Part shown: piece after piece, positions 10,931 to 18,916 of the stretch
How positions within the stretch are numbered: position 1 is the first letter of the stretch
Layout: each line of letters begins with the position of its first letter
Assembly (NCBI GenBank): GCA_018058545.1
Contig: JAGOZU010000026.1
Span: 1-33,035, forward strand
DNA length: 33,035 nt
Source: Promineifilum sp.
Lineage (GTDB): Bacteria > Chloroflexota > Anaerolineae > Promineifilales > Promineifilaceae
Direction: 5' to 3'
Notes under the pieces: model-generated
Told to the model about the DNA's origin: nothing
Database searches by the model: none
The model's input: only the letters and a program-made list of their open reading frames with translations
Translations under genes and position numbers: made by a program

Positions 10931-13357
10931 ATGATCGATCAGAAGACACTCTCCATTTTGGAATTCATTAAAATCCGCGAGCTTGTCGCCGGACACGCCA
11001 ATTTCAGCGGTGGCCGCGAATTGGCCCTGGCCATGCAGCCAACGACCGATTTGACGGAGGCGCGTGCGTGGCAAACCGAGACCCGCGAGGCGGTGTCTCT
11101 GTTCGAGACCGATAGCGGCGTGACCATCGGCGGCGCGCGCGACGTGCGTCGAGCGGCCGATAATGCCATGCGCGGCTTCGTCCTGCCGGCCGAGGATTTG
11201 CTGGCCATTCAGGCGACCATCGTGGCCGGGCGTAACCTGCGCCGCCAGTTGTTGCGCCTGGAAGATCGCGTGCCCCATCTGGTGGCCATTGCTAATCTCA
11301 TTGAGGAGTGTCGCGGCATCGTCAGCGCCATCACCGGCGCAATTGACGAACGTGGCGACGTGCTGGACAGCGCCAGCCCTTCTCTGGCCAGGGTGCGCCA
11401 ATCCCAACGAATGGTCCACGGCCGCATCCAGGACAAGCTGCAGCGCATCCTCAACAGCAGTATGTCCCAATTTCTTCAGGAGCCGATCATCACTCAGCGC
11501 GGCGGCCGTTATGTCATCCCGGTTCGGGCCGATGCCAAGGGGCGGCTGAAAGGCATCGTCCATGACCAAAGCGGCAGCGGGGCGACGCTTTGGGTGGAGC
11601 CGCTCGGCACGGTCGAACTCAATAATGAGTATCGCGGGTTGCTGCTGGAGGAGCAGGAGGAGATTCAGCGCATCCTGCGCGAGCTGTCCAATCTGGTGGC
11701 CGATCAGGGCGACGCCGTCAAGCGGGTCGTCGAGCGCATGGCCGAACTCGACCTCATCTTCGCCCGCGCCGGTTATGCCCTGGTCACGAACGCTGTCGAG
11801 CCGGTCTTCGTGCCCTGGCGCGAATCACCAAAGGCTCGGCCTCCCCGTCATCGCAACCAGCTGGAAGACTGGACGCCGCCACCGCCCGACCTTCACCCCG
11901 GTTCGAGCATCTGGATCAAGGCCGCGCGCCATCCGTTACTCGATCCGGCCAGGGTCGTGCCCACTAACCTGACTCTGGATGAGGATATCTTCATCGTGCT
12001 CATCACCGGCCCCAACACCGGCGGCAAGACGGTCAGCCTGAAGACGATGGGCCTGATGGCCGTCATGGCCCAGTCCGGGCTGCATCTGCCGGCCAATGAG
12101 GCGCGACTGACGGTGTTCGACGCCATCTTCGCCGACATTGGTGACGAGCAATCGATCGAGCAAAGCCTGTCCACCTTCTCGGCCCACATGTCCAATATCG
12201 TGCGCATCCTCGCCCAGGTGAACGACCGCTCCCTCGTCCTGCTCGACGAGCTGGGATCGGGGACCGATCCGACGGAGGGCGCGGCTTTGGCCCAGGCCGT
12301 AGTCAACTTCCTGCGCGACAAGGGGGCGACGACGTTTGTGGCCACCCATTTCCCCGAGCTAAAGATCTACGCCAGCCAGATGCCGGGAGCGACCAATGCC
12401 TCGCTGCTGTTCGACATGGAGACGCTGTCGCCCACGTATGAGATGACCATTGGCCTGCCCGGCCGGTCCAACGCCTTTGCCATCGCCCGCCGCCTGGGTT
12501 TGGACGCGACGATCCTCGACGATGCCATGCGCCAGGTGAGCGCCGACAGCCACCAGGCCGAGGACTTGCTTGACTCCATCTATACCCTGCGCGAGAAGAT
12601 GGAGGCTGAAGAAGCCCAGACCCGCAAGGTTTTGCGCGATGCCGAGGCCGAGCGGGAGCGGCTGCGGCGGCGGCAGCAGGATGTCGAGGTCGAGCGCGAG
12701 CGTATCCTGGAAGAGACGCGCCAGGAGATGAAACGGCAGATCGAACTGCTCCAGACCGAGATTCGCCAGGCCCGCACCAGGTTGAAGGATGCCGCCTCGG
12801 TCACCGCGGTCAAGAAGCTGAGCAAGCAGGCGGCCGATCTGGAGGTGGAGCAACAGGCGACATTGGCCCCCGAGCCGGTTGGAGAGCCGGAGGTCAGTCG
12901 CGGCAAGCGTCGCGCCCTCCAGGTGGGGGATATCGTCCAGGTGCGCTCGCTCAATGTCAAGGGCGAGATTGTCTCGCTGGGCAAGAGCGAGGTGGTGGTG
13001 GCCGTCGGCCGCCTGCAGATGCGCGCGGGCTATGACGATGTGGAGTTCCGGGAGCGGCCGTCGGATGAGCGGGAGGTCGAAGCCGTTGCCAACCTGCATC
13101 CCTCGCCCGGCATCGAGCTGGACATTCGCGGCGTGCGGGTGGAGGACGGCGTGGAGCAACTCCAGCGCTACATTGACTCGGCCTTTCTGGCCCGGTTACC
13201 GTTCGTGCGCATCATCCACGGCAAGGGCACCGGCCGCCTGCGCCAGGCTGTGCGCGAATCCCTGAGCGCCAGCAAGCAGGTGCGCGCCTGGGAAGAGGGC
13301 AAGGACGGCGAGGGTGGGCCGGGGGTGACGGTGGCCCACCTGGTAGAACACAAGTAG
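10931..13357 (+). CDS. mutS2: MutS2 family ATPase/endonuclease
   Basis: This 808-residue protein has the complete MutS2 architecture: N-terminal helical core domains, MutS-type ATPase with Walker A GPNTGGKT at 360-367 and Walker B LVLLDELGSGTDP starting at 435, a long charged coiled coil (about 545-640), a KOW-like linker segment (about 664-690), and a C-terminal Smr nuclease domain (LDIRG at 730-734, HGKGTG at 763-768). Family members bind branched DNA or collided ribosomes. Roles in suppressing recombination and in ribosome rescue have both been described, and the sequence does not tell which applies here. It lacks the mismatch-recognition domain of MutS. It is divergent from the Wzt-type gene and converges on uvrB with only 19 bases between stops. 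No Shine-Dalgarno site precedes the ATG. Confidence 0.97.
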   Translation: MIDQKTLSILEFIKIRELVAGHANFSGGRELALAMQPTTDLTEARAWQTETREAVSLFETDSGVTIGGARDVRRAADNAMRGFVLPAEDLLAIQATIVAGRNLRRQLLRLEDRVPHLVAIANLIEECRGIVSAITGAIDERGDVLDSASPSLARVRQSQRMVHGRIQDKLQRILNSSMSQFLQEPIITQRGGRYVIPVRADAKGRLKGIVHDQSGSGATLWVEPLGTVELNNEYRGLLLEEQEEIQRILRELSNLVADQGDAVKRVVERMAELDLIFARAGYALVTNAVEPVFVPWRESPKARPPRHRNQLEDWTPPPPDLHPGSSIWIKAARHPLLDPARVVPTNLTLDEDIFIVLITGPNTGGKTVSLKTMGLMAVMAQSGLHLPANEARLTVFDAIFADIGDEQSIEQSLSTFSAHMSNIVRILAQVNDRSLVLLDELGSGTDPTEGAALAQAVVNFLRDKGATTFVATHFPELKIYASQMPGATNASLLFDMETLSPTYEMTIGLPGRSNAFAIARRLGLDATILDDAMRQVSADSHQAEDLLDSIYTLREKMEAEEAQTRKVLRDAEAERERLRRRQQDVEVERERILEETRQEMKRQIELLQTEIRQARTRLKDAASVTAVKKLSKQAADLEVEQQATLAPEPVGEPEVSRGKRRALQVGDIVQVRSLNVKGEIVSLGKSEVVVAVGRLQMRAGYDDVEFRERPSDEREVEAVANLHPSPGIELDIRGVRVEDGVEQLQRYIDSAFLARLPFVRIIHGKGTGRLRQAVRESLSASKQVRAWEEGKDGEGGPGVTVAHLVEHK

Positions 13358-13376
13358 CCGACCGTCACCCGGCGTA

Positions 13377-15464
<2,088 letters not shown>

Positions 15465-15504
15465 AGCGCACCTCGTTATTCGGTTCCGAAGAACACCGAT
15501 AATT

Positions 15505-15518
15505 AGAACAGAAGTTCT
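15505..15518. promoter_or_regulatory. LexA-type SOS operator of uvrB
   Basis: AGAACAGAAGTTCT is a perfect inverted repeat, AGAAC-N4-GTTCT. It contains the GAAC-N4-GTTC core known for LexA of Gram-positive and several other non-proteobacterial phyla. It lies two bases downstream of the uvrB -10 box and covers the predicted transcription start, an ideal position for repression. lexA itself is not in the window. A second, oppositely arranged repeat GTTC-N4-GAAC lies 10 bases further towards the gene (15483-15494) and does not match the LexA consensus. Confidence 0.72.
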
Positions 15519-15520
15519 TG

Positions 15521-15549
15521 ATTCTACACGTTTATCGGCCGAAAATCAA
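15521..15549 (-). promoter_or_regulatory. uvrB promoter
   Basis: On the minus strand TTGATT (15544-15549) and TAGAAT (15521-15526) are separated by exactly 17 bases. The expected start is near 15514, inside the LexA-like box, which gives a leader of about 50 bases. The -35 nearly touches the 3' end of the upstream glutaminyl cyclase gene. Confidence 0.7.
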
Positions 15550-15553
15550 CGGC

Positions 15554-16570
15554 CTAAGGCGCGGGAATCACTTCAATTTCGAACAAGGTGGGCCAGAGTT
15601 TGCCGGTGACGAAAATGCGTCCGGTCTGGGGATCGTGGGCGATTCCGTTCAACACATCTACCGGTTGGGTCAAGGCGCTCATATCCAGCAAACCGGTCAG
15701 GTCGACGTAGCCGAGCACGGCGCCGGTCTCCGGCGAGATGCGGGCGATCAAATCTGTCATCCAGATATTGGCCCATATCTCGCCATCGATGTATTCGAGT
15801 TCATTCAGTCGATTTAACGGCCCCTGGTGATCGCGCACGGTGATTCGGTCGATCTCCTCCAAGGTATTGGGGTCCCAAAAATAGAGCGTTGACGTGCCGT
15901 CGCTGACGATCAGCCTCTGTCCGTCGTGGGTGATGCCCCACCCTTCGGTGGGATAATTAAAAGTCTGGAGTGTATTGAAGTTGGCGCGGTCGTATACGAA
16001 GCCGGTTTGTTCCTGCCAGGTCAACTGGTAGATCTTGTCATTCAGGAGGGCGATACCCTCGCCAAAGTATTGCGGATCCAGTGCGTGAGACCGTATCACG
16101 CTGCCGGTCTCAAGGGTCACCTCCCGCAAGGTGGATTCACCCCAGCGTCCTGTTCCTTCATACAGGAGGCCGTCGTAATAAACCAGCCCTTGAGTAAACG
16201 CTTCGGGGTCGTGGGGGTAGGTGTTGACAATCCGATAGGTGTAAGTTATTGGAGGGGCGGGGGTGGGCGTGGGCGTCACCGTCGGCGTGGGCGTCTCGGT
16301 GGGCGGGACTGTGGGGATCGGTGTGCTCTGACTGGCGACGACGGCGGCATAGGCTACTTCGGTCGCAACTGTGCTGGTGGAAACGATATCCGCCTGGGAA
16401 AGGGTTACCTGGGAGGGATCGATTGGCGCGGAATCAATGGTTTCCAGGATTGGAACGACGGCCGTCGCTGCCAGTGTCGCTATAGCTGGGGGAGATTGAA
16501 CACAAGCCGACAGCCCAACGGCGAGGGATATCAATAATAAACAGGATATTGGAATAATAAGTCGCTTCAT
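15554..16570 (-). CDS. Glutaminyl-peptide cyclotransferase, lipoprotein form
   Basis: This 338-residue protein begins with a lipoprotein signal peptide ending in LSAC (Cys23), so it is probably anchored to the outer face of the membrane. A Thr/Pro-rich linker spans about 80-108. Residues about 109-335 form a beta-propeller matching glutamine cyclotransferase (plant/bacterial type): HDPEAFTQGL, then a GRWGESTLRE segment and a late LNGIAHDP segment. Such enzymes convert N-terminal Gln of peptides to pyroglutamate, releasing ammonia. The biological substrates in bacteria are mostly unknown. GAGAAG lies four bases before the ATG as a ribosome-binding site. It ends just upstream of the uvrB promoter and could read through into uvrB. 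The function is well supported by fold motifs, though activity is inferred. Confidence 0.86.
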   Translation of the reverse strand: MKRLIIPISCLLLISLAVGLSACVQSPPAIATLAATAVVPILETIDSAPIDPSQVTLSQADIVSTSTVATEVAYAAVVASQSTPIPTVPPTETPTPTVTPTPTPAPPITYTYRIVNTYPHDPEAFTQGLVYYDGLLYEGTGRWGESTLREVTLETGSVIRSHALDPQYFGEGIALLNDKIYQLTWQEQTGFVYDRANFNTLQTFNYPTEGWGITHDGQRLIVSDGTSTLYFWDPNTLEEIDRITVRDHQGPLNRLNELEYIDGEIWANIWMTDLIARISPETGAVLGYVDLTGLLDMSALTQPVDVLNGIAHDPQTGRIFVTGKLWPTLFEIEVIPAP

Positions 16571-18229: not shown

Positions 18230-18916
18230 TTAGGCCAATGTCTGGCGGAACAGATCGGCGATCCGCCGAAAGGCGTCCTCGGCCGCTTCGGGGTTATAAA
18301 CCGGCCGCCGATCATTCATGAACGCATGTTCCGCGTTCGGGTAGATGATCGTTTCGTGTCGAACGCCGGCCGCATCCATCAATTCCGCCCGTTGCCGGGC
18401 CACTTCGGGCGAGACACCCCGATCAAGCTCACCGTAGATCGCCAGCACCGGAACCTCGATTCGGGCAGCCTCCTCCAGGGTCATCTCGGGGCCGCCGCCA
18501 TAGCAAGGCGCAACCGCGCCAACCCCCTCCAGCCTGACCGCCCCATGCCAGGCCAGTCCACCGCCCATGCAGAAGCCGGTGACGCCGATTTTCTTGGGGG
18601 ATACTTCGTCAAGGGCGATGAGGTAGTTGACGGCTGACTGAATCACATTCAAGGCGTCGGGATACTCCAGGGCCATCGCCAGCTTCCGAGCCGTGTCCGG
18701 CTCTTCGGCCGTCTCGCCGTAATAGAGGTCCGGGGCCAGAGCGACAAACCCTTCCCGCGCGAAACGGTCGGCGATGTCCCGAATATTGTCGTTTAAGCCC
18801 CACCACTCCTGAATGACTATCACGCCCGGCCGAGGACTATTTCCGGCCGGGATCGCCAGATAGCCCCGTGTCTCACGGCCGTTGGCCTGCAATTTAATAT
18901 CAGGTTTGCGTTCCAT
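18230..18916 (-). CDS. Dienelactone hydrolase family protein
   Basis: This 228-residue alpha/beta-hydrolase of the dienelactone hydrolase type has the nucleophile Cys116 in GFCMGG, the activating Glu37 in QEWWG, Asp165 and His197 (AEHAF), so the full catalytic set is present. The family hydrolyses cyclic enol lactones such as dienelactone, but many genomic members act on unknown esters. No aromatic-degradation genes are nearby, so the substrate is open. The start at 18916 is chosen because AGGGAG lies four bases before it. An in-frame ATG at 18931 has no such site. It lies 21 bases downstream of the TIGR01777 epimerase gene and is surely cotranscribed with it. It is cytoplasmic, with no signal peptide. 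Confidence 0.92.
   Translation of the reverse strand: MERKPDIKLQANGRETRGYLAIPAGNSPRPGVIVIQEWWGLNDNIRDIADRFAREGFVALAPDLYYGETAEEPDTARKLAMALEYPDALNVIQSAVNYLIALDEVSPKKIGVTGFCMGGGLAWHGAVRLEGVGAVAPCYGGGPEMTLEEAARIEVPVLAIYGELDRGVSPEVARQRAELMDAAGVRHETIIYPNAEHAFMNDRRPVYNPEAAEDAFRRIADLFRQTLA

Follow-up and report, generated by a model that had tools for sequence, protein, structure and literature searches.

In the window (the whole 33,035-nt stretch of Promineifilum sp. DNA analysed here) the predicted promoter of uvrB is followed by a site that we read with high confidence as a LexA operator of the GAAC-N4-GTTC type, at which LexA would block the promoter until its RecA-triggered self-cleavage. The reading is built on what the sequence provides, namely the site itself, its position after the -10 element, its conservation among relatives, a LexA and RecA encoded in the genome, and boxes in the promoters of lexA and recA.

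The uvrB promoter and its palindrome

The UvrB product scored 1035.6 bits against NCBIfam PRK05298.1 (cut-off 743) and 1016.3 bits against TIGR00631 (cut-off 750), contained the Pfam domains UvrB_inter, UvrB, Helicase_C and UVR, and had its closest named matches in MAGs of Anaerolineae and Anaerolineales (65–67% identity), which suggests a placement in Chloroflexota, in or close to the class Anaerolineae. Only 89 bp separate the end of the glutamine cyclotransferase gene from the uvrB start, and this gap holds both the promoter and the box (Table 1). On its other side uvrB converges with mutS2, the two stop codons lying 19 bp apart (region 10931-13464). Five relatives (G001, G023, G025, G033 and G037) have two uvrB genes each, one copy ~62-63% and the other 77-80% identical to UvrB of the window.

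Read on the minus strand, the gap contains TTGATT-N17-TAGAAT-CA-AGAACTTCTGTTCT, which confirms the first-pass annotation's description of TTGATT-17-TAGAAT with the box following two bases later. A promoter scan of positions 15300-15700 returned this promoter as its sole promoter-like match (9 of 12 positions), and a TTGATT or TTGAAT -35 element with the identical 17-nt spacing was seen in two genus members. The core of the box, GAACTTCTGTTC (15506-15517), forms a GAAC-N4-GTTC palindrome without mismatch. It starts three bases past the -10 hexamer and so spans roughly -3 to +9 relative to the inferred start of transcription; given the predicted promoter, this places it within the range (-35 to about +20) where binding would block RNA polymerase. 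The earlier description of a promoter overlapped by a perfect box thus holds for the inferred start of transcription, which the box covers, but not for the -10 hexamer, which it leaves free.

Table 1. Positions of the features discussed; coordinates refer to the window except where a contig is named.
Feature	Position	Strand	Basis or remark
mutS2	10931-13357	plus	convergent with uvrB
uvrB, excinuclease ABC subunit B, 695 aa	13377..15464	minus	NCBIfam and Pfam profiles
Everted repeat GTTC-TTCG-GAAC, uvrB leader, judged incidental	15483..15494	minus	sequence
LexA-type operator AGAACTTCTGTTCT (candidate)	15505..15518	minus	sequence and family conservation (20/28)
Predicted -10 element TAGAAT, uvrB promoter	15521..15526	minus	promoter scan and TANAAT-type hexamer at family sites
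Predicted -35 element TTGATT, uvrB promoter	15544..15549	minus	promoter scan and genus members
Glutamine cyclotransferase	15554-16570	minus	next same-strand gene upstream of uvrB
lexA, sole copy over family cut-off	C134:26065-26727		LexA_DNA_bind and Peptidase_S24 domains

A lone core of this kind is weak evidence. The window holds two perfect GAAC-N4-GTTC cores against 0.31 expected from shuffles, the other one (18320-18331) lying inside a coding frame, and a pattern search for perfect matches counted 43 cores in the whole genome, many of them inside genes, against 19 for the reversed control pattern. With the core so common, it is location that counts, and these numbers by themselves would suit a chance palindrome in front of a constitutively expressed uvrB. 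The relatives argue decisively against that reading. When we took as much as 220 bp of the sequence ahead of uvrB from 28 genomes of the family, 20 of the regions contained the perfect core and none contained the reversed control, and dinucleotide shuffles of the same 28 regions gave a mean of 0.12 cores and a maximum of 4. At all 20 sites the core lay 2-3 bases after a -10-like hexamer (TAGAAT, TAAAAT, TACAAT or TATAAT), even though the sequence flanking the box diverged and the distance from box to start codon ranged from 18 to 186 bp. This conservation refutes a chance origin, to which we assign practically no probability. The other eight family regions had no perfect box. Elsewhere in the class a perfect core was found upstream of uvrB in 6 of 27 loci, the remaining 21 being without one; a box directly after the uvrB -10 recurs in some of these families (G060, G081, G051 and G048), and it was seen as well in two Caldilineaceae of the Anaerolineae, L083 and L088.

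A second, opposite repeat (GTTC-N4-GAAC), which had been proposed as a possible separate feature, is indeed present 11 bases from the box core. We rejected it as a hairpin or a second operator and treat it as incidental, because it is not conserved (it occurs in 1 of the 28 family uvrB upstream regions, by inspection the window's own) and because folding of the uvrB leader does not surpass that of shuffled sequences (z 0.18).

LexA, RecA and further genes with boxes

The first-pass annotation had held that its proposal would be refuted by the absence of lexA or of a similar box upstream of lexA or recA, and neither objection held. The genome has one lexA, whose product carries the LexA DNA-binding and S24 domains. 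Aligned with solved LexA proteins, it matched the Ala-Gly cleavage site (IVAG), the serine motif (GDSM) and the lysine motif (TLKHF), and the genome is accordingly predicted to encode an intact LexA of the self-cleavable type. The lexA promoter (TTGACAGCGAACATGTGTTCGTGTTATACT in full) has the form TTGACA-gc-GAACATGTGTTC-gtgt-TATACT, with a perfect GAAC-N4-GTTC box within the spacer between -35 and -10, and a perfect box occupies this spacer at all 30 of the 30 family lexA loci.

Boxes had also been anticipated at recA and uvrA, and here the outcome was mixed. The genome carries two recA genes. The promoter of recA1 (TTGACAGATACGAACATCCGTGCTAGTAT in full), TTGACA-gatac-GAACATCCGTGC-TAGTAT, has a one-mismatch box in the -35/-10 spacer and a second, distal one-mismatch box 41 bp farther upstream. 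Most relatives keep this combination of spacer and distal box at their recA1-type loci, often as a perfect distal box plus the spacer box GAAC-N4-GTGC. No box was found in the region read for the second recA (C147) or in that read for a dinB-like polymerase (C29). Upstream of uvrA in this genome inspection revealed just the two-mismatch GACCATATGTGC, which is not convincing, and we rejected uvrA as a co-regulated gene here, although a uvrA box does not define promoters of this class; across the family a perfect box was found in 3 of 28 uvrA regions, and several others have a one-mismatch GAATNNNNGTTC merged with the -10.

By the established LexA mechanism, binding, repression and damage induction would be expected at uvrB: a LexA dimer lying over about -3 to +9 would block RNA polymerase at the promoter, RecA filaments on damaged DNA would trigger self-cleavage of LexA, and the promoter would then open and UvrB rise. 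Since the start of uvrB carries the same switch sequence as the lexA promoter and, slightly altered, the recA promoter, excision repair is very probably damage-inducible, as in Bacillus and Clostridium. The earlier proposal of an SOS response with inducible excision repair is thereby supported by lexA, by the boxes at lexA and recA1 and by the uvrB box in 20 of 28 relatives, from which we infer the inducibility.

LexA-type boxes were also seen at several other genes. Two homologous proteins with hydrophobic stretches, encoded at L002:566-1444 (minus) and L287:592-1341 (minus), share 57% identity over 218 residues and by eye were judged to be located in the membrane; upstream of the first is a perfect GAACAATCGTTC and upstream of the second a recA-type TTGACTAATAGAACATCTGTGCTAATAT. 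The L002 protein had no Pfam or NCBIfam match, and viral contigs yielded no relative of P0001, the SOS-linked membrane protein. We regard the L002 and L287 genes as candidate undescribed SOS genes. An FtsK/SpoIIIE-like gene (L032:4752-5963, minus) adjoins lexA on the same strand and has its own perfect box, GAACATATGTTC, at L032:5989, 25 bp before its start. The same perfect GAACATATGTTC is found at L037:3567, 46 bp upstream of an AAA_25-domain gene (L037:2396-3520, minus) that is followed by a zinc-ribbon/Toprim primase-like gene, and these two genes may form an SOS-controlled module that is mobile or serves replication. Finally, a perfect GAACAATTGTTC lies at L023:1507, 15 bp upstream of the start of mraZ (L023:1072-1491, minus), a gene that usually heads the cell-division cluster. 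In the genus g20 (G020 and G034) we found no LexA over the family cut-off in either incomplete genome; the uvrB of G020 nevertheless keeps a perfect box, GAACGTTAGTTC.

Inner bases of the uvrB box

The uvrB and lexA boxes of the family differ in the bases between the half-sites. The base after GAAC is T in 19 of 20 uvrB boxes versus A in 28 of 30 lexA boxes, and the base before GTTC is C in 14 of 20 versus T in 27 of 30; a purine follows GAAC in one half only in 17 of the 20 uvrB boxes, compared with 1 of the 30 lexA boxes. By these counts the family uvrB operator is an asymmetric sub-type of the box.

Inner bases opposite to those of lexA and conserved across the family, together with the persistence of the uvrB box in G020, would fit a repressor other than LexA, for which the GAAC and GTTC half-sites would be convergent and the inner TT(T/C/A)C would provide the specificity. 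We consider this improbable, as a single lexA was found in the genome of the window, the G020 genome is incomplete (92%), and LexA proteins of other bacteria are associated with sites of the same kind. The LexA of Clostridioides difficile binds the operator GAACTAATGTTC of its uvrB in vitro, the uvrB region carrying AGGAACTAATGTTCGA, and it also binds the operator GAACTTTAGTTC of CDR20291_2689, a member of the higher-affinity group (PMC4234289); G021 and G029 have exactly the core of the latter operator as their uvrB boxes. A listed SOS box of the Bacillus phage SPbeta, CGAACtTtTGTTCt, likewise has T after GAAC (PMC8270828), and the uvrB region of a Bacillus sp. (L092) itself carries GAACTTTTGTTC. 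Because the C. difficile LexA sites and the SPbeta box share this T, it is not a strong argument against LexA, which on our analysis remains the best candidate binder of the uvrB site.

It is also conceivable, although we doubt it, that LexA binds here too weakly for much repression, because the T that replaces A in one half-site reduces its affinity, and that uvrB is induced only mildly or very early. The one-sided purine that sets uvrB boxes apart from lexA boxes is in keeping with such a weakened site, but dissociation of LexA from the uvrB operator is slow in C. difficile, where that operator carries this T as well (PMC4234289). A weak operator of this kind is a refinement of the LexA reading and compatible with it. 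Equally tentative is the idea that GAACTT(T/C/A)CGTTCT is a distinct LexA sub-type that selection might keep apart from the lexA and recA operators, either to give excision repair an induction threshold of its own or on account of a second factor that reads this site.

Relation to known SOS systems

In Firmicutes and Actinobacteria, operators of the GAAC-N4-GTTC type were recognised long ago (PMC3323433), and the uvrB site is a further instance of this Gram-positive-type SOS operator. The SOS systems of Bacillus subtilis, Mycobacterium and C. difficile share with the one described here the operator core, a LexA with HTH and S24 domains, and boxes at lexA, recA and uvrB (motif, PMC3323433; C. 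difficile, PMC4234289). Unlike in those systems, uvrB has no uvrA behind it in the window, where a convergent mutS2 is found instead; its box sits just after the -10, whereas the lexA and recA boxes lie between -35 and -10; and the inner TT(T/C/A)C makes the uvrB box of the present family asymmetric. In E. coli, uvrB is likewise under LexA control, but through an unrelated operator (CTG-N10-CAG type) and with several promoters and the involvement of DnaA (PMC6015884).

The literature searched contained no description of the uvrB arrangement and family-wide conservation seen here, no paper on LexA in Chloroflexi, Anaerolineae or Dehalococcoides, and no SOS study of the present uncultured Chloroflexota family. 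A LexA box of the Gram-positive type has reportedly been found in Dehalococcoides ethenogenes, which belongs to the same phylum and shares the operator core, but represents a different class.

At the level of sequence, the analysis supports a working SOS circuit of lexA, recA and uvrB across one large uncultured Chloroflexota family, and it provides a strong family-level motif that can now be used for predicting further SOS genes. The difference between the uvrB and lexA operators offers, in addition, a testable hint that induction in this family may be graded.
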